Source of the DNA: a virus
Virus record (IMG/VR): IMGVR_UViG_3300048597_000634
Coordinates: 124,001-188,000 of that record
Length of the DNA: 64,000 nucleotides
Reading direction: 5' to 3' (one strand)
Part shown: positions 2,572-29,766 of the stretch, piece after piece
Position numbering within the stretch: position 1 is the stretch's first letter
Layout: each line of letters starts with the position of its first letter
The notes under the pieces: generated by a model
What the model saw: only the letters and a program-made list of their open reading frames with translations
Databases searched by the model: none
What the model was told of the DNA's origin: nothing
Translations under genes and position numbers: made by a program

Positions 2572-4200
2572 TTAACTATTAAAGTTTACGGATGCAGAGC
2601 CATACCATTTAGTGCCATTATCTCTAGTAACAAAGGTAAAGATATGCACTTTACCCGTCGTCAATACTGGCGCGGTATTGTTAGACCATCTAACGCTGGC
2701 AGGCCAAGTAATCGTCCCACCAGTATGGTTTATCTCTATAGTAAATGAATAAGCGTTGGTGCCAGTGTCAGGGGCAGAAAACGTAAAGGTGGTATTACTA
2801 CTTACCGTCCGAATAAAGTAATTACCTAAGGTCGTCTGGATGTTAGATGCCCCGACTGTGGTTACAGTCCTAGCGTAAGGCTGGGCAATAGCTGCCCCTA
2901 CAAACTCCGTAGTGGCTATTTTAGTAGAACTATCACCGACAGTAGGAGTATTAGCCGTAGGGTTAGTAAGACTAGCACCGCTAAGATTTGCTTTACTAGC
3001 TAGACCATTATTGGCGGTAGTAGCCAGGTCAAAGGCAGTCTTTAGGGCGTTTGCTGTGGCAGCTTGGGTAGTAGAAGTACTGCTCGTCGTGTTGTTGAGT
3101 TGAACTACACCAGCTTGACCAGTAGTAGCACTTTGAATAGTAGCCGGAGTTACGCTAGCTACGTGACCATTAGCATCAAAGGTCATTGACTGGATATAAG
3201 ACAGTCCGGTATTAGAGCTGTTGGTAGCCTTTGGGCTGATAGTGGGGTGTGACGTCAGATAATTAGTTGTATCTAATACCCAAGCACTAGCGCCATTCTT
3301 CCGTAATAACCCGGCGGTACCTGTTAGGTACGAGATATTAGTGAGAATATCATTGGTCGTCTGTTTGGCGTCTAATGCGCTTTGTAGTCCACTGACTGTA
3401 GATATAGCTTGGGTGCCAGTATGGTTGGCTCTAGACCGGTTAGCTGTGTCTCTGGCGTTTAACTGGGTAGTAGTCTCGTAGTCATTAAGAGCGCTGGGTT
3501 GTAACGCTGTAGAGGCTAAAGCACCTTGTGCAGCGGTAGCAAAGTCTTCAATATCAGATAGGGCAGCGGTGCCGAATGCAGGCTTACCGGTGATATCAGT
3601 CCAACCTACGTTAAGAGTTACTTCGCCTAGTTCGTCTAAGTCAATAGCTGCTAACTTTTGTTTTTCTAGTGTGGTGTAGTTTTCTTCAGTAGCAACATAG
3701 TTGGGGTCAATAACTACCCCGGCGTTATACGCCATTACCGAGACACCTATGTCTGCTGCTTTGAGGATAGTGGCGTCGGCGGGCTCTTTGCTATTTACGT
3801 TGTCGGTTAGTTCACCTAGAGCTTGATCTATACCAAATAATGTAGTGCTGAGGTCTGCGATGCTAGATATAGGTTGGGTGCCGGTATGGTTAGCCCGATC
3901 ACGATTAGCTGTGTCTCTGGCGTTTAGTTGGGTCGTCGTCTCGTAGTTGTTAAGGGCGCTCGGTTGTAACGCAGTAGAAGCTAAGGTGCCTTGGGCAGCG
4001 GTAGCAAACTCATTTGAATCAACTAATGCTGCCGTTCCAAATGCAGGTTTATTTGTAATAGTATCCCAGGCTATGGTGATTTCTGTCTGCAACTCACCGA
4101 GCTTTGCTTTCTCTGCGTCAGTATACGCGTTAGTGTCTGGATGGCTTTCGTATAAAGCCTTAATTTGGGCGCTGGTTAGATGACTGACATTGTTGCTCAT
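2572..4200 (-). CDS. Tail fibre protein with internal duplication
   Basis: 542 residues. The N-terminus (AQIKALYESHPDTNAYTDAEKAKL) is a fibre module found again in the small plus-strand gene at 27036. Residues about 45-109 and 200-264 are two near-identical copies of a fibre repeat (KPAFGTAAL ... YETTTQLNARDTANR ... RANHTGTQ). The middle has the collagen-like SLTNPTANTPTVGDSSTKIATTEFV linker typical of phage fibres, and the C-terminus (TNAYSFTIEINHTGG ... GTKWYGSASVNF) is a standard trimeric tip beta-domain. It is the main adsorption fibre candidate of this window, followed by a glycine-rich tip gene and an assembly-like gene. Confidence 0.85.
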   Translation of the reverse strand: MSNNVSHLTSAQIKALYESHPDTNAYTDAEKAKLGELQTEITIAWDTITNKPAFGTAALVDSNEFATAAQGTLASTALQPSALNNYETTTQLNARDTANRDRANHTGTQPISSIADLSTTLFGIDQALGELTDNVNSKEPADATILKAADIGVSVMAYNAGVVIDPNYVATEENYTTLEKQKLAAIDLDELGEVTLNVGWTDITGKPAFGTAALSDIEDFATAAQGALASTALQPSALNDYETTTQLNARDTANRSRANHTGTQAISTVSGLQSALDAKQTTNDILTNISYLTGTAGLLRKNGASAWVLDTTNYLTSHPTISPKATNSSNTGLSYIQSMTFDANGHVASVTPATIQSATTGQAGVVQLNNTTSSTSTTQAATANALKTAFDLATTANNGLASKANLSGASLTNPTANTPTVGDSSTKIATTEFVGAAIAQPYARTVTTVGASNIQTTLGNYFIRTVSSNTTFTFSAPDTGTNAYSFTIEINHTGGTITWPASVRWSNNTAPVLTTGKVHIFTFVTRDNGTKWYGSASVNFNS

Positions 4201-16347: not shown

Positions 16348-17196
16348 TTAGCTTAAGTGAGGTTTTAACATTAAGAGGTCTTGGTGGAAAGACCAAGATG
16401 GGCTGCCTGGTAGGTATGGTGTAAGCCATTCATTACGGGTTACTACGTTATGCCCTTTCTTGTATTTAGTGATAGCTTCGACTCTAGGTTCACACCGAGC
16501 TGGGCGGGCTGGATTTAAAGTAAAAACCGCCGGTCGCCTGCCTAGCTTTAGGTCAGACCGCCGACGGCATTCATTTAAGCCCATTCCATCCAATACCTTG
16601 GGATATAGCAGCCTAATGCCTCGGTAAGCTAAAGAACCGCACACCAACATGGGAACCGTAGATGGTAATGCTTCTAACTCTAGCTTTAACCATGTCAAAA
16701 CACAAGGCTTAACGTGGGTATGTAACAACGGCTTGCGCGCCCCTGGGTCACACTTCAACACATTAGTAACCCAACAGTCATCATAGGTGTTCAACCCAAA
16801 TATCTCATTGAGCTTATATCTGATGTAGCCGCCGGCGTTATACGGTCTTAACAACCCAGTCTTCAGTCTCAATCCGTTATCACCCCGTCTAGTATCCCAG
16901 AAGGGTTCGCCGTTGGCTGCTTCCCAATGTCCACTAAAATCACTGATGACTATCAGTTTTACTTTGGTTAAGTCGTCAGGGCCTGCACCAGGTGCGACTA
17001 AACTGAGGGGCTCTGACCTACGACTACCATCGTTTAATTGATTAGCTTCCATAGCCTTACGGTTACGGGCTTCTCTGACCTCACCTAAAGGGCATACGCT
17101 GCACTTAGTATCGCAACGGATAGTAGGGTGGTCACCGGCTAAATATCGAGTAGGTGGGTCGTTAGGCAGTGGTGGTGTGATTTGTGCTTCGGGCAT
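16348..17196 (-). CDS. Uracil-DNA-glycosylase superfamily protein
   Basis: 282 residues. N-terminal Cys set (C28, C32, C35 in CDTKCSVCPLGEVR) plus a later Cys resembles the iron-sulphur signature of family 4/5 glycosylases; VKLIVISDFSG matches the motif that holds uracil in place, YDDCWVTNVLKCDPG the following beta-strand and loop, and MLVCGSLAYRG the next strand. Expected role: removing or sensing uracil in DNA, or protecting replication. The region is typical for the superfamily but the exact activity cannot be told. It overlaps the DHH gene by 35 bases. Confidence 0.75.
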   Translation of the reverse strand: MPEAQITPPLPNDPPTRYLAGDHPTIRCDTKCSVCPLGEVREARNRKAMEANQLNDGSRRSEPLSLVAPGAGPDDLTKVKLIVISDFSGHWEAANGEPFWDTRRGDNGLRLKTGLLRPYNAGGYIRYKLNEIFGLNTYDDCWVTNVLKCDPGARKPLLHTHVKPCVLTWLKLELEALPSTVPMLVCGSLAYRGIRLLYPKVLDGMGLNECRRRSDLKLGRRPAVFTLNPARPARCEPRVEAITKYKKGHNVVTRNEWLTPYLPGSPSWSFHQDLLMLKPHLS

Positions 17197-21332: not shown

Positions 21333-23367
21333 TTAGTGAGCCCAGACGGGCGCTATAGAATAAGAACAGGCACCTTTGATCTCAGAGCCTAGAGCCTCAA
21401 ACTGTTTGGTTTGCACGGACTCCATTATCTGCTTAATGGTCTCTGCTATTTCTATAGCTAGCTTATCGGATGTGAAGGCTAATTCTGTGTATAGCCCATC
21501 GTCATTCACTTTGCTGTTGTCCCAGTCTATGGTAGATGTACCAGGAGAGTATATCAAGATTTCCATTTGATGTTGCGCCCCGCCCGATTCCGACGGGGCT
21601 CCTTAGCTTACACTAAGGGTCAGACTATATCATCACCAGCTTATGCGCTGGTGCAACCTGTTTCGAGACCTCTTGGTCCCTACTCCCTTGCGGGATAGTC
21701 GTTGAACCTTGGTCATGTGGTATGACCCTTGGCTGCTGATTGCCCTGCTTTAGCGTGGGGGTTCCCAGCAATTAAGGTTGTTTACCCACGACAAAATCTA
21801 TCGTGCACCTGTCCAATCAGTTGAATATCCTCCTGTGTAAACGTTGAATGGTTATCAATCCACCGTTGGATTAATATCATGGATTCTTTGGTCTGGGTTG
21901 CTGAAATGCTTTGGCATTGTTGTTATCGTAGAGCCGTTTAAACTCTACTTCCGCTGGTCACCCAACGGGTCAGGTCATATCATCGACTCTAGGAGTCGCC
22001 GGGCGCTCTTGGATAATATTATAGTTTGGGTCCATATTATCTGACCGTCACACCTTCCTAGGGACTAAAACCCATCCTAGGCTTGGCTCGGTATTGCCTG
22101 GCTAGACACCAGGGGTCCACCGAATTCACCCGGTTATCACTTAATCATCACTGATTAAGGCCACCCATTAGTTGATGGCGCAATTCACAGCAGCCCGCAC
22201 AGCGGAATCTCCTTCCTTGCCGCCAGACCTTTCTTCAGCTCGATGTTGTTATCGTCAGGCTCTTTATCCTGACTTCTATTGGTTTCCCAATAGTCCAGAC
22301 TATTTCTTAAGCGTTGCCATTTTGACAACCCTTTCGGGCGCTCGTGGGGATTATTATTGTTGGAACTCAAATCCCTAGTCGTTGAACCTGACGTAGAACC
22401 AAAGTCCTCTACGTATTGGCTTAGCGTTACCATAACCTTCTTATAAGCGTTAGGCTTTCACTAAATTCACCCGATTTAAGGTAGGCTAACTATTCACTTT
22501 ACCCACCGGTGCCGGCCTGTCAACGGGACTATACAAAAGCCCCTGGCGGCGGCTAAAGCACCATAATTCTCCGCCCAATCATAATACCCAGCGTAAGTTT
22601 CGCGATGGTTTTTTACCCAGGACTCAGCGACGTCTAGTTTGACATGATTACGCTCACTGATTGACTGGGGTGTGCTTAAGTAAAGCATCAATTGCCCCCG
22701 GCTTTCACCGAGGATTAGACTATACCTTTACAATCATTGATTGCACTCGCCGTGTTACCCAACCTTAGGGTTGAGTCTCAGAGTCACCATAGTGTCGGCA
22801 CCTTAGGTTATCGTCAGTCGTTGAACCATTCGCGCCGCTTTCACGACGCCCTGGCTGCTGATTGGCATCGACGTTAGTCGGAAGCTTTCCAGCAATTGAG
22901 CGAGTTTGTTTTCGCCAACTCTACTTAGCGAAATTGAGCGTCTTAGCCGTGTCACGGGGTTTACGCTTTTCTCCAGGCTGTAGTTTTCGTACTATTTCAT
23001 CCCACTCGCTTTCAGGTTTTCCTTCTACTAAGTGAGGATGGGTGCAGTTAGAACAAGTCCAAGAATGGAGGTCCCCTCTAGGGTTTGTATAGGTAGTTCC
23101 GTCGGGCAATGCGAGCTTTTTAGGTAATAATTGCGCTTGAGTCATGGCCGGGTCTTTACTAAGCACTGTAGCTACTAAAATTTCCTGGGATGAGTAGTCT
23201 AAAGATACTATACTTTTCCCCGACCCATTACCACAGGTAAAACCATTACGAGGGTTACTCATAAAGGTAATAACCTGTTCTTCGGTTTGAGGCTCGCTTA
23301 ATACTACGCCGCCGCCCGTGGGGGCTGGGCGGGTAGTCAGTCTTCGTTTACGTTTCGGTTGGTTCAT
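21333..23367 (-). CDS. Family A DNA polymerase, five exons, C-terminal half only
   Basis: A spliced gene: exon 1 22927-23367, exon 2 22501-22688, exon 3 22170-22240, exon 4 21800-21900, exon 5 21333-21563 (1032 coding bases, 343 residues). Motif A is IVSLDYSSQEILVA with the metal-binding Asp; motif B begins RDTAKTLNFA and continues in exon 2 with MLYLSTPQSISE; exon 2 ends TGRHRWV; exon 3 gives AEERSGGKEGDSAVRAAVN; exon 4 STQTKESMILIQRWI and ends QVHD; exon 5 opens with E, completing HDE of motif C. Every junction follows U and precedes a base after G, and the frame is preserved throughout. The usual exonuclease and thumb regions are absent; the first 50 residues are a basic linker just before motif A, so it must act with a separate N-terminal partner or as a minimal enzyme. 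The start overlaps the winged-helix gene by 20 bases. Confidence 0.88.
21564..21799 (-). ncRNA. Group I intron 4 in DNA polymerase (motif C)
   Basis: 236 nt, inserted exactly between the GAT of His-Asp and the GAA of Glu in the catalytic HDE. Elements: CAATCAGCAGCCAAGG (Q-like), GTTCAACGACTATCC (R), GATATAGTCTGACCC (S). Introns 1 and 4 share an AATTGCTGG segment and almost the same Q element and are probably copies. No ORF. Confidence 0.87.
21901..22169 (-). ncRNA. Group I intron 3 in DNA polymerase
   Basis: 269 nt, inserted after CAI and within the codon following AIN. Q-like element GGCAATACCGAGCCAAGC; R element ACGGTCAGATAAT; S element GATATGACCTGACCC. P7 here is GGUCA with UGACC rather than GACUA with UAGUC, a compensated change against intron 4's otherwise near-identical S element, which supports the pairing. 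No ORF. Confidence 0.83.
22241..22500 (-). ncRNA. Group I intron 2 in DNA polymerase
   Basis: 260 nt, splits the codon after TGRHRW. Core elements: GCTAAGCCAATACG (Q-like), GTTCAACGACTAGGG (R), AAATAGTCTGGAC (S), with GACUA pairing with UAGUC. The intron contains an in-frame readable stretch that makes an 82-codon shadow ORF; part of that frame belongs to exon 3 in another frame. 5' site after U, ends in G. Confidence 0.85.
22689..22926 (-). ncRNA. Group I intron 1 in DNA polymerase (motif B)
   Basis: 238 nt, no ORF. It interrupts the codons of KTLNFA just before MLYLS. A Q-type core (CAATCAGCAGCCAGG), an R element (GTTCAACGACTGACG) and an S element (GGTATAGTCTAATCC) are in the group I order, and GACU pairs with AGUC in P7. 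The 5' site follows U, the 3' end is G. Confidence 0.85.
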
Positions 23368-23599
23368 CGTCGGTGTTAGTTAATTCTTTGAGCTTCTGTT
23401 TGCCTTTTTTGGTTAGAGACAATGGGGCTGACTGTTTAAGTAAATCGAGATGCTTAAGAGACTTAAGGGCGGCGGCGATTTGCTGTTTAGTCAATCCTTC
23501 ACAGTCCGCAGGATAAGCAATAGGATTATGGTCAATGAACGACCGTAATACTAACTCCTCATCCTGGGATAGTTGTTGGCTGAAGTGGTTGGGCGTCAT
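23348..23599 (-). CDS. Small winged-helix protein
   Basis: 83 residues. A helix, helix-turn-helix (LTKQQIAAALKSLKHLDLL) and beta-wing with a lysine-rich strand (PLSLTKKGKQKLKEL) give the layout of a small winged-helix DNA-binding domain. Its stop overlaps the polymerase start, and its own start overlaps the stop of the large ATPase gene. It may regulate or assist the polymerase. Confidence 0.65.
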   Translation of the reverse strand: MTPNHFSQQLSQDEELVLRSFIDHNPIAYPADCEGLTKQQIAAALKSLKHLDLLKQSAPLSLTKKGKQKLKELTNTDDEPTET

Positions 23600-26064
23600 A
23601 GTGGCGCGGTGCCTCGTCTGGTTTCTAATTCATTAATAATCTCTAGTAACTGCCAGAATTTATCATGACTAACATTAAATGCCGCAAGCAGGTCCCAATA
23701 CTGCATAATCACTTTGCCGTAGAGTAAGCGTCGGTCATCACAAGACTTTCTGTTTAATATGCTGTATTCCTTGCACAATCTCAGGAAATTAGGGTGCCAA
23801 TCAGCTATACGCTTAGTTTCTTTGGGGATATAACGCCCTAGTAGTGTTCGTATAGCTCGGTACTGCTCGCCGGACATATAAGGGTCTCCAGCAAAACCCA
23901 GCACCTCCCCAGAATGGTTAGATTCTAACCACTTAAAGAGCCGATCTCTCACTGTGTCTATAGAGGTCCAGTTACATAACCCTGCCTCACATAGCGTTTC
24001 AATCTTAGCCGCCGCGTTGGGTGAGATGGTAAACCGGAATGGGTGGTAATGCTTAATGAAACACCGCGGCGCCATGGACACACAGCTATATTCCTCATCA
24101 GTTTTGATAATGGTGTAGATGCCGTTATTTTTTAAGTAAATGACCGGCTCCATTAATAGCGCCTCGTTAATATCATTGAGGTCATCTACGGTGTGCTTAT
24201 GCTCCCATGAACCTACATTGATGACGTCATCGCTAGTGTTCCGCAGTTGCCGAAGCAGCACTGCTAAGTCAACACCAGTCTTATCCTCTACCTCATCCTT
24301 ACTAGACTTATTAACGGACTTGGTACTCTTAGTTCTGTATAGCCCAAGGTAGTTAATGATTGGGCCGTAAGGTTTTAGCTGGTCCTCTAGCATGTTGAGA
24401 GCTGAAGAGTCCTGGGATAGCTTTAATACTAGGACGGGGCCGGTTATCTTATCTCCATAGACCCGCTCAAGTTGTTTTAAGGTTATATCGCGCCCCCGGA
24501 GGGCTATTACGGTCAGACCAAGGTTAATAACCTTTAATGGGTTCATACGGGCGCGGTCATTGGGCGTTGCCTTGACCTTAGCGTGCCGGTAATAATCCTT
24601 AATTTCTTTCCATAACTCGCCATCGTAGTCATAAGACATATCACTGTCAGCTAACAGGTAATACTTAGACACGGCGTAACTGCACCCTAGACTCTTGTTG
24701 TTAGATAAGTAGTCGTAGATATAACCATGGCTGCCCCGCGGCTCAATTAGCGTAATCAGACCGTCAGTGTATGTAAAGGATGGGAATTGTTGCTCACTGT
24801 CAACCCCGTTAGATACATAACGTAGTTTATGGGGACCAGCATCTACGGTGAAGGATAATTTGGCTTCAGCATTGAGATAGTATCTGATACGCTGTGTTAG
24901 CGCTGTGCAGTAATTAAGAAAGACCTTGGACACCTCAGCCACATTGGTTAAGTCAGCACACTCGTGGTGCTTCTTAATATGCTGGTCAAAGGATTGCTGG
25001 ACCAATGCACTGAGCCTTCTATTGACCTCAACACTAATGACTTGCGAGGCTAAAGCTTGTAGTTTGTCTAGGATTGGCTGCGTTTGGTCATTCTTCAACA
25101 ACTCTTCTCGGCTTGTGTTTAAAGGCAAATATCCAGGCGGTACTCGAATAACCACCACGCAGTGCTGTTCTGTCGCTGAGCTGCTTCGATACCCTAATAG
25201 GTCTGAGCTGAGGATTTCTTCTATAGTTAGCTGTTTGCTTATGGTAGTAGCGTTACTATACACGTAGCCTTTATTTTGTTTGAGGTAATATAAGGCGCCG
25301 CCTAAGTCTAAAATCACACTACCGTAGCTATAACGGTTAGCAGTGTAATAATCTACAGTTACTGGCGTGTCCGCCTCTTCCTTTGTGTTTAGAGAAAAGT
25401 AACGGTGAGGCTTTAAGCCTTGACCAAACCACCAATCATCCTGCGACGTTAGTGACTCACCTTTAATAAGGTTGAAGTCATAACGAGAGACGTCTATTAA
25501 GTCTAGTAATGTATGTATGACTTTACTTGTAGCTACATTACCGAAAGGGATGGTGACTTCTAACCCAGTGTTATCTGCTTCTACGGGTTCTGGGTCAGAC
25601 CATATTGTTAACTCAGGGATGTGGTATTCATTCAGGTTACAGAGGTATAGGGTTTCATAGCCGCCGTGGAAACTACGAATGTAAAACTGTTTAGATAAGG
25701 CAAGCGGCGCCAGCCGACCCACACCATAGGCACCAATGGCATTAGCGTTATCTTCCTTAGTGCTCTCACCAATGTGGGTATATAACCCGTGCATTGATTC
25801 AGGACTTAGCCCCGGACCATGGTCACGGATGATTACCCGGTCTACTTCTACCGTTATATCTACTGATAATCCAGGACCTACTTCGTTGTTAGCGTCGTAG
25901 GCGTTGCTGATGATTTCACGGAAGGCGGCGCTAAGGGGGTCGGCGTATTGTTGGGTGATTAATAGTTGACTTAGCTTAGCTAACTGCTGGCGTTCTAGCT
26001 TAATGCTGAATTCTTTGCCAGACTCGTTCTTGATGGCGGTGCGTTGTTCTAAGATAGGCCTCAT
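23596..26064 (-). CDS. Large GHKL ATPase, rIIA-like
   Basis: 822 residues. The N-terminus is a Bergerat-fold ATPase: AFREIISNAYDANN (N-box, with E50, N54 and D57), VIIRDHGPGLS (G1, 79-87), and HIGEST ... GAYGVGRLAP (G2, about 98-120). The rest has no motif recognised by eye. The size and the N-terminal ATPase match phage T4 rIIA, the membrane-associated protein that blocks abortive infection (Rex) in lambda lysogens. Sequence match beyond the ATPase is not clear, so it is 'rIIA-like'. No rIIB-like partner is seen next to it. Confidence 0.65.
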   Translation of the reverse strand: MRPILEQRTAIKNESGKEFSIKLERQQLAKLSQLLITQQYADPLSAAFREIISNAYDANNEVGPGLSVDITVEVDRVIIRDHGPGLSPESMHGLYTHIGESTKEDNANAIGAYGVGRLAPLALSKQFYIRSFHGGYETLYLCNLNEYHIPELTIWSDPEPVEADNTGLEVTIPFGNVATSKVIHTLLDLIDVSRYDFNLIKGESLTSQDDWWFGQGLKPHRYFSLNTKEEADTPVTVDYYTANRYSYGSVILDLGGALYYLKQNKGYVYSNATTISKQLTIEEILSSDLLGYRSSSATEQHCVVVIRVPPGYLPLNTSREELLKNDQTQPILDKLQALASQVISVEVNRRLSALVQQSFDQHIKKHHECADLTNVAEVSKVFLNYCTALTQRIRYYLNAEAKLSFTVDAGPHKLRYVSNGVDSEQQFPSFTYTDGLITLIEPRGSHGYIYDYLSNNKSLGCSYAVSKYYLLADSDMSYDYDGELWKEIKDYYRHAKVKATPNDRARMNPLKVINLGLTVIALRGRDITLKQLERVYGDKITGPVLVLKLSQDSSALNMLEDQLKPYGPIINYLGLYRTKSTKSVNKSSKDEVEDKTGVDLAVLLRQLRNTSDDVINVGSWEHKHTVDDLNDINEALLMEPVIYLKNNGIYTIIKTDEEYSCVSMAPRCFIKHYHPFRFTISPNAAAKIETLCEAGLCNWTSIDTVRDRLFKWLESNHSGEVLGFAGDPYMSGEQYRAIRTLLGRYIPKETKRIADWHPNFLRLCKEYSILNRKSCDDRRLLYGKVIMQYWDLLAAFNVSHDKFWQLLEIINELETRRGTAPL

Positions 26065-27495: not shown

Positions 27496-29766
27496 TTACT
27501 CGTAGTCCCTAAATGCTACACCAATAGGGAATCGTGGCAGACCATCATCTGTATAACCATGGTGCTTAATGGTTATTAAGGTTTGTGATTCCGGCGGGTT
27601 GTCATAAACTTCCTGCTTCTGTGCTACCGTGCCTTGCATTTTAGCCTTAAACACCAGACCAATACACGTCGAACACTCAGCTATTAGGTCTTCAACGCCC
27701 CGCTGCCCTAACAAGAACCTCTCAAAGACGAACTCATTGGTATCGTACTCCTTAACCTTCAGTAGGTTGCTAGACCGCTGCCCTTGGTCGTAAGTGCCAT
27801 TAAGGAGACGGATCATTACACCCTCGTAACCTTCGCTAACGTAGTGCATGTGAAGCTCCATCACTTCCTCCTTGTTGTCGCAGGTAGAGGTAGGTAGGGC
27901 TTTAACATGCTGCCAACTAATAGTGGATGTCAGGCGGCGCACCTCCAACTCCCGCTCTAGCTGCTTCTGATCGTTGACAATGTCGTAGACCCAGAACTCT
28001 AGCTGTAAGGATTGCTCTTGTTGTTTCTTAACAGCAGAGACAATCTCTTGGAAGGTTAGCTCTCTAGTGAATATCTCCCCGTCGAGGATGACAGGCTGGG
28101 TGAGCTTCTCTTCTAGTTCCTTTTTGATGTGCCCTAGCGTAGTGTACTTTTTGCCGGTGCGGGACAGGAAAGTAACGGTCTTACCGTCGAACACAGCCAG
28201 GGCTCTACAATTGTGAATAACAACGCCGTTAGCGACGTAGTTATGATTGTCTTCTACCTCTAGGTCGTACTTAGTGTATGGGGCAGAGCTACGCTTAGCT
28301 TTAGTTTTATGAAACTTACTCCAAGCGAACTCGTCTTTTGCGGCTTGCACGTAGTCTTCCGTAGGGAAGTAATATTTGTACTCTACTCCTTTACAATGGC
28401 ACTTCCGTAAACTGTTAAGTAAATAAAGAGTGTCTTTAGTGTTGAACTGTAGGAATATTCCAGAGCAATTAGTGGTGTCGACACGTTTATCCCGTATTTC
28501 TGTAGGCGTGCAATGCCACTTTTTCTGAAAGTATTCGACAAACACTTTTATCTGGTCGAGAGAGTGCTTATGTGTGGATATACTTAGCACCGGTGTGTTA
28601 GGGTTTCCGTTGTTAAAGCTTATACTTCCGTCATCTGCAATCCATAGACTTAGAGCTTCTGGGCTCATGTATTTACACATGTTATCGTATGTGATGTGCT
28701 TCCTGTGCCCTAGCCGCTTACAGTGCCCTGTAAAGTAGATTAACTCGATAGGAAAGTCTGTCTTACTTAATGCGACACTATCAAACCGATAGCCTTTAGA
28801 CCCATAACCTGTTGTGTATTCGGTACACCTACCATCTAAGTTTAGAGTCTTAACCTTAAAATCGAATAGCTCTTTATTGGTATGACTAAAAGCTAATCTG
28901 TAACTGGTACCGCTACCTCTTTTTTCTATGTTCATTATGCTATCCCCCAGTAAGGTGCCAAAGACAAGAGACGTTCTATACTCGGAGAAGCAATTTACGT
29001 AGATTAAATCTTCCTTCTCATTAAGGTCGCGAGCTTCTTTCCAGCCTTGGTTGGTAAAGTATTTATGGTTGGCAGTTGTCTTCAATCGTGTACCTGTAGG
29101 CAGAGTAACATCTAACCAATCTTTGTACTTAGAGCTTCCGTTATTAAACCAATTTGTTATGGGCTTGTACTCAAAGACCTTTTTGGCTTCGTTGTAAGAG
29201 AGCACTTCCACCTTCATTTTGGTCTCTACTATCTCTTCAATGCTTATTAGTCCTTTATTAGTAGAGACTAGAGTTTTACCGTAGACGCAGCCGTCCAATT
29301 TGGGCTGCACAAGGCAGCGGTACTTAACTTTATTCCACTTCACGGACTGGGCTAGCATTGGCTTCCGCATTCCGTTAGCGTCAGTGTTAAAGGTAGGTAG
29401 AGCGGCTTCTAAAGCATTCTTTAAATGCGAATAGAGAGTATTCTCGTAGGAGAAAGCTGACGCGGCTGTTCCTTCTACCCAAGAGATGCCTAGGTCTTCT
29501 AAAGACTTGTAGCCCTCGTCTTGCTTCTTCTTCCAGTCGCTGCGGGCTTCAGACTCGGCTTGTTGTTGGGGTGTCGTGGCGTTACTTCTGTTTAAGTTCT
29601 TACCTTCGCTAATGGTCTTGATGTTAACGAGGGGTTTGTCGGTGCCGTACTGTCCTGAGGTCTTGATGACCTGATACTCGTCGGAGCCGAGGACAGCTTC
29701 AGTCTCGATCTCCCAATAGGCTATAGATAGATTCTTTGTGCGCTTGTAAAGTATTGGTAGTTTCAT
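27496..29766 (-). CDS. ATP-dependent DNA ligase interrupted by an intein
   Basis: 756 residues before splicing. Exteins: 1-159 and 520-756, which join to a ligase of about 396 residues. The N-terminal WGR-like region is followed by motif I KYRCLVQPKLDG with the adenylated Lys; the intein is inserted immediately after it. After splicing, CRALAVF follows; LSRTGKKYT is motif II-like, LDGEIFT motif III, EGVMIR motif IV and LLKVKEY motif V. Phage ligases of this type seal nicks in replication or in repair. The last residues are PIGVAFRDYE. The N-terminal extein overlaps the next gene by 68 bases. Confidence 0.9.
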   Translation of the reverse strand: MKLPILYKRTKNLSIAYWEIETEAVLGSDEYQVIKTSGQYGTDKPLVNIKTISEGKNLNRSNATTPQQQAESEARSDWKKKQDEGYKSLEDLGISWVEGTAASAFSYENTLYSHLKNALEAALPTFNTDANGMRKPMLAQSVKWNKVKYRCLVQPKLDGCVYGKTLVSTNKGLISIEEIVETKMKVEVLSYNEAKKVFEYKPITNWFNNGSSKYKDWLDVTLPTGTRLKTTANHKYFTNQGWKEARDLNEKEDLIYVNCFSEYRTSLVFGTLLGDSIMNIEKRGSGTSYRLAFSHTNKELFDFKVKTLNLDGRCTEYTTGYGSKGYRFDSVALSKTDFPIELIYFTGHCKRLGHRKHITYDNMCKYMSPEALSLWIADDGSISFNNGNPNTPVLSISTHKHSLDQIKVFVEYFQKKWHCTPTEIRDKRVDTTNCSGIFLQFNTKDTLYLLNSLRKCHCKGVEYKYYFPTEDYVQAAKDEFAWSKFHKTKAKRSSAPYTKYDLEVEDNHNYVANGVVIHNCRALAVFDGKTVTFLSRTGKKYTTLGHIKKELEEKLTQPVILDGEIFTRELTFQEIVSAVKKQQEQSLQLEFWVYDIVNDQKQLERELEVRRLTSTISWQHVKALPTSTCDNKEEVMELHMHYVSEGYEGVMIRLLNGTYDQGQRSSNLLKVKEYDTNEFVFERFLLGQRGVEDLIAECSTCIGLVFKAKMQGTVAQKQEVYDNPPESQTLITIKHHGYTDDGLPRFPIGVAFRDYE
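28210..29289 (-). mobile_element. Intein with LAGLIDADG domain in ligase motif I
   Basis: 360 residues, from Cys160 (CVYGKTLVSTNKG) to Asn519 (NHNYVANGVVIHN), followed by Cys. Block A, block B (TTANHKYFTNQG), a two-motif LAGLIDADG homing-endonuclease domain (SLVFGTLLGDSIM; LSLWIADDGSI) and the C-terminal blocks with HN|C are all present. The insertion site is directly at the catalytic KLDG, so splicing is needed for ligase activity. Confidence 0.9.

Follow-up and report, generated by a model that had tools for sequence, protein, structure and literature searches.

The window analysed here is a stretch of 64,000 nucleotides, positions 124001-188000 of a 205,544-base virus record. On its minus strand, positions 21333-23367 hold a family A DNA polymerase gene that consists of five exons and four compact group I introns. 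Exon 1 (22927-23367, 441 nt) encodes the N-terminus and motif A (DYSSQE) and ends in motif B (...KTLNFA); exon 2 (22501-22688, 188 nt) and exon 3 (22175-22240, 66 nt) follow; exon 4 (21800-21914, 115 nt) ends in motif C (QVHD), and exon 5 (21333-21563) contributes 231 nt including the stop codon. The joined exons comprise 1,041 coding nt and encode a protein of 346 aa. Intron 1 (22689-22926, 238 nt) is located between A147 and M148 in motif B, intron 2 (22241-22500, 260 nt) inside codon V210 (GRHRWV), intron 3 (21915-22174, 260 nt) at codon I232 (RAAVNCAI), and intron 4 (21564-21799, 236 nt) in motif C, where it separates D270 from E271. The four introns together have a size of 994 nt, about half of the gene.

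The same gene, with its neighbours, is present on a second viral contig, IMGVR_UViG_3300048597_000133 (hereafter L008), whose polymerase shares 79% protein identity over the joined frame. The open frame of exon 1 and that of exon 4 align with L008, and the identities of exons 2, 3 and 5 are 89%, 91% and 82%, respectively. The pN/pS ratio against L008 is 0.20 over the joined frame, 0.09 in exon 2 and below 0.3 in each of the five exons and, thus, purifying selection acts on the gene as on a single protein.

A preliminary description of this DNA had joined five minus-strand exons into one frame containing motifs A (DYSSQE), B (RDTAKTLNFA|MLYLS) and C (QVHD|E), separated by intervals of 236-269 nt without ORFs. 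The join proved to be real and open, all three motifs are present, and no homing endonuclease ORF was found inside the four introns. The lower end of the size range stands, intron 4 being 236 nt long, but the maximum after correction is 260 nt. Intron 3 had been placed at 21901-22169, and the L008 sequence, which lacks this intron, shifted it to 21915-22174, moving the end of exon 4 and the start of exon 3 accordingly. L008 reads NCAIQSLSCSQTKE at this position; the corrected join gives NCAIQSISATQTKE, whereas the original join gave NCAINSTQTKE. At the corrected 5' site, P1 has 5 bp (GCCAU/GUGGC) and ends in U.G, as compared to 3 bp at the site proposed before, and the Pfam DNA_pol_A score of the joined protein rises from 72.1 to 84.3 bits when the borders are shifted. 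A mechanically predicted ORF of 82 aa (22185-22433, minus strand), which spans part of intron 2 and exon 3, has no Pfam match and was taken to occur by chance.

The polymerase and its genomic neighbourhood

The individual ORF fragments score far below the joined protein against Pfam DNA_pol_A: exon 1 alone reaches 17.8 bits and exon 2 alone 10.4 bits, and the other two ORF fragments tested gave no match to this family. Motifs A, B and C of family A polymerases occur in order and with correct spacing (D57..E62, R138-K142-F146-Y150 and H269-D270-E271). In the alignment with Klenow polymerase, which also places motif C at H269-D270-E271 of the 346-aa protein, R138, K142, F146 and Y150 correspond to R754, K758, F762 and Y766, Klenow residue numbers that were inferred from chain positions. 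The predicted product is a stand-alone family A DNA polymerase of a large uncultured phage and has no exonuclease domain.

Among annotated proteins, the closest are two stand-alone polymerases of 320 aa from the Microcystis phages LMM01 and MaMV-DC, which both lack introns, align end to end with the joined protein and show no gap at intron sites 1 and 4. Like the present protein, gp178 of LMM01 is a small family A polymerase without an exonuclease domain; unlike the present gene, its gene is intron-less, and the two proteins are 30% identical. LMM01 encodes a separate 3'-5' exonuclease just upstream of its polymerase gene. No counterpart of this partner gene was found in the present virus record, which may be a fragment.

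Several neighbouring genes deserve mention. A protein of the uracil-DNA glycosylase superfamily is encoded at window positions 16348-17196 (minus strand), and the uracil-DNA glycosylase gene of LMM01 likewise lies a few kb from its polymerase gene. Upstream of the polymerase gene, an 822-aa rIIA-like ATPase is encoded at 23596-26064 (minus strand), and this gene order is conserved in L008. The gene for an ATP-dependent DNA ligase (27496-29766, minus strand) is broken by an intein (Pfam Intein_splicing, 66.8 bits) adjacent to DNA_ligase_A_M; the intein carries a LAGLIDADG_2 endonuclease domain (57.6 bits). It represents another type of self-splicing element, a few kb away from the polymerase introns.

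Anatomy of the four ribozymes

The preliminary description had interpreted the intervals as group I introns in a phage polymerase gene and had named a covariance-model search as a check. This interpretation is borne out by matches to Rfam RF00028, by the end-to-end polymerase homologue and by the L008 alleles. RF00028 matches all four intervals on the minus strand over its entire length (model positions 1-253 of 253): at 22696-22936 for intron 1 (65.3 bits), 22276-22532 for intron 2 (77.3 bits), 21951-22184 for intron 3 (41.9 bits, E 9.4e-9) and 21601-21828 for intron 4 (77.3 bits). Three of the four exceed the gathering score of 50 bits; intron 3 is the exception. No other RF00028 matches were found in the whole virus record.

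As had been proposed, all four introns begin after U and end in G, at borders that are fixed by L008. P1 has 7, 7, 5 and 6 bp in introns 1 to 4, respectively, and in each case ends with the exon U paired to an intron G; the four helices sum to 25 bp, with a joint shuffle p of 5e-5. When each guide is compared with every exon, only its own exon gives this degree of pairing, off-diagonal values being 3 bp at most. Thus, the internal guides are orthogonal: each pairs well with its own exon only. Canonical P3 (6-7 bp), P4 (6 bp), P7 (5 bp), P8 (5-6 bp) and P9 (6-7 bp) helices are present in all four introns; these helices were placed by eye along the Rfam alignment and then checked by script, and it is the Rfam E-values, not the helix assignments, that carry the significance.

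The P7 pairing GACUA/UAGUC given in the preliminary description is exact in introns 2 (22376-22380 with 22298-22302) and 4, but in intron 1 (22815-22819 with 22718-22722) it is GACUG/UAGUC, with a G.U as the last pair. In intron 3, P7 is formed by GGUCA/UGACC (22042-22046 with 21973-21977). This had rightly been described as a compensated change: three of the five pairs differ on both sides, and the first pair, a G-C in all four introns (the guanosine site), is kept. The other helices of intron 3 are intact (P2 8 bp, P3 7 bp, P8 6 bp, P9 7 bp). Intron 2 has a P9.1. P10 is evident in intron 4 (7 bp) and in intron 2 (5 bp, interrupted by a 1-nt gap), but weak in intron 3 (3 bp) and intron 1 (2 bp at most). 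Introns 3 and 4 contain hairpins between P7 and P3' that, by inspection and not by means of a subgroup model, resemble P7.1/P7.2 of subgroup IA. Subgroup IA is the usual class of group I introns in phages.

Reading on from the exon, an in-frame stop codon is encountered at codon 2, 3, 3 and 6 after the four 5' sites, respectively (shuffle p of the position sum, 0.003). Such early stops are a recognised trait of group I introns in translated genes and are considered to shield the intron from ribosomes while it folds (PMC3984707).

Intron alleles in L008 and kinship of the introns

We consider L008 to be the strongest evidence for the introns: three of the sites are empty there, and the fourth is occupied by an allele with an endonuclease ORF. 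It is uninterrupted across sites 1, 2 and 3. At site 4 it has the same intron, of which the first 42 bases are identical, with an inserted LAGLIDADG_2 ORF of 211 aa; the copy in the window is therefore the endonuclease-free allele of this intron. In addition, motif A of the L008 polymerase (DYSS|QE) is interrupted at 2947-4000 by a group I intron whose 261-aa LAGLIDADG_3 ORF precedes the ribozyme core; this intron is absent from the phage of the window. A search of the present record for counterparts of both L008 intron endonucleases found none, the sole weak match overlapping the core of intron 4.

A search by alignment with LMM01 identified L008 and eleven distant loci; for further close relatives, scans of the searched collections and a DNA pattern built on the first bases of intron 4 returned either the L008 contig or nothing. 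L008 being the one close relative found in these collections, the empty sites rest on one metagenomic contig together with distant homologues. Gene conversion around intron 4 was also considered: codons for the same amino acid are identical in a proportion of 0.62-0.71 near the site, as compared to 0.20-0.45 immediately upstream, but other parts of the gene show comparable proportions and we make no claim to this effect.

Kinship of the introns was assessed by local alignments scored against shuffles, within a small panel. Introns 2 and 3 group together with the L008 motif A intron (z 9-15) despite their three different sites, and introns 1 and 4 form another group (z 11). Intron 4 gives a z of 39 with the L008 intron at site 4, and also resembles introns from the terminase gene of a coliphage and from the RNA polymerase gene of a Serratia phage (z 13-19). 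When introns 1 and 3 were compared with phage records by BLASTN, nothing matched at E 1e-3.

Since introns 2 and 3 are similar to each other and to the motif A intron of L008, a single gene may have been colonised repeatedly. It is conceivable, though rather doubtful, that these three are one ribozyme that moved between sites and re-evolved private guides each time, giving rise to the orthogonal four-intron cassette; we regard movement within the gene as a lead and not as a result. By descent, the four introns look like homing introns, given the LAGLIDADG gene in the L008 copy of intron 4.

The preference of group I introns for conserved sites is established (PMC2814812). Intron 1 is located within motif B, and the polymerases of Listeria phage LMLPA3, Aeromonas phage HJ05 and Xanthomonas phage MK21 appear to be broken near or at the same codon, with borders drawn partly by eye. 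The LMLPA3 gene (L024, 1-3062) is broken twice, at the SPO1-type site and in motif B, and is annotated as separate DNA polymerase ORFs; its first interval contains an HNH endonuclease and its second an unnamed ORF.

Predicted splicing, alternative readings and known intron-bearing genes

The locus is almost certainly a family A polymerase gene with four compact, endonuclease-free group I ribozymes; that these splice, that they do so independently of proteins, and how they came to be there is what we infer from the gene structure, from ribozyme folds assigned by homology and from the empty sites in the relative. Each intron would fold in the transcript around its P3-P8 and P4-P6 helices, and its private P1 guide would select its own 5' splice site. 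A guanosine bound at P7 would make the first cut, after which the exons would be joined behind the terminal G of each intron; removal of all four introns would restore an active polymerase. Ribosomes on unspliced RNA would reach a stop two to six codons past each 5' site, before the ribozyme core. Given that the introns are located in motifs B and C and within the GRxxW and RAxxNxxIQ segments, unspliced or mis-spliced RNA should yield no working enzyme.

Three other readings were weighed. The ORF fragments might be separate genes, or a pseudogene, and the intervals ordinary spacers. A gene caller would list small separate ORFs here, and a phage polymerase gene split like the present one would escape such programs. 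However, the RF00028 matches sit exactly at the homology gaps, and the four joins restore the frame exactly when compared to a relative without introns 1-3. The Rfam matches and the L008 alignment led us to reject this reading, whose probability we regard as negligible. It is also unlikely that the introns are real but that at least one of them, most likely intron 3, is inactive or requires a protein helper, with the consequence of inefficient polymerase production or of a gene in decay. This possibility draws on the covariance score of intron 3, the lowest of the four, and its unusual P7, on the short P10 of introns 1 and 3, and on the report that some Bastillevirinae introns are excised in infected cells and not in vitro (PMC11878797); the compensated P7 with its retained G-C pair, the intact P2, P3, P8 and P9 of intron 3 and the purifying selection on all exons argue against it.

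Quite unlikely, too, is a regulated or alternative splicing in which exon 3 is skipped in some transcripts, generating a second product or a switch. Among the internal exons, exon 3 is the only one that can be lost by itself without a frameshift, the introns flanking it (2 and 3) are related, and exon skipping at adjacent group I introns has been reported for orf142 of Twort and for a gene of SIOphi (PMC11878797). On the other hand, the guides are orthogonal, and skipping would remove AEERSGGKEGDSAVRAAVNCAI, a conserved active-site segment, so that the product should be dead.

How does this gene compare with known intron-bearing phage genes? In the family A polymerase genes of SPO1, SP82, Bastille, Pf-WMP3, the T7-like phages PhiI and W31, and phiL7, group I ribozymes reside in conserved active-site segments, as they do here. 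These genes have been described with one intron, which usually carries an HNH endonuclease, whereas the present gene has four introns and no endonuclease ORF. The published intron sites in phage polymerases are 674, 676 and 881 in E. coli numbering (PMC3428280). None of our introns is at 674 or 676; intron 4, between the equivalents of D882 and E883, adjoins site 881 of the T7-like phages (PMC3428280). Several group I introns per gene, as found here, are also present in polymerase and terminase genes of Bastillevirinae, with up to three in polymerases (PMC11878797), but those introns have a mean size of 802 bases and most encode nucleases (PMC11878797), as compared to the ORF-less introns of 236-260 nt within 1,041 coding nt described here.

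Similarly, the capsid ORF of the crAss-like zeta group (OLRF01000054) is divided by four intervening segments into five fragments (PMC7886860); three of these four segments encode intron-type protein domains (PMC7886860), while all four of ours are bare ribozymes. In Jug phages, the mean number of small group I introns is 18.5 per genome (PMC12363816), whereas in the present record the polymerase introns are the only RF00028 matches. Like our gene, orf142 of phage Twort is a very short gene that contains more than one group I intron; as cited in PMC11878797, it differs in being a tail gene with three introns and exon skipping, as opposed to a polymerase gene with four.

The preliminary description had given no known parallel for four ORF-less introns within about 1.1 kb of one polymerase gene. 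Four bare introns in about 1 kb are indeed uncommon, but three-intron polymerases (PMC11878797) and a four-segment capsid gene (PMC7886860) have been published. Four introns in a phage gene are thus an extreme case of a kind already described, rather than something new in kind. The uncommon aspect is the combination of four bare ribozymes in 1,041 coding nt, all of them within active-site motifs or adjacent to these, and of an allelic series in L008. The gene is a compact natural test case for the number of ribozymes that fit into one short essential gene. Moreover, its alleles are informative, comprising three sites that are empty in the relative, a fourth site with and without an endonuclease gene, and related introns at different sites, and they therefore render intron gain, endonuclease loss and site switching directly testable.
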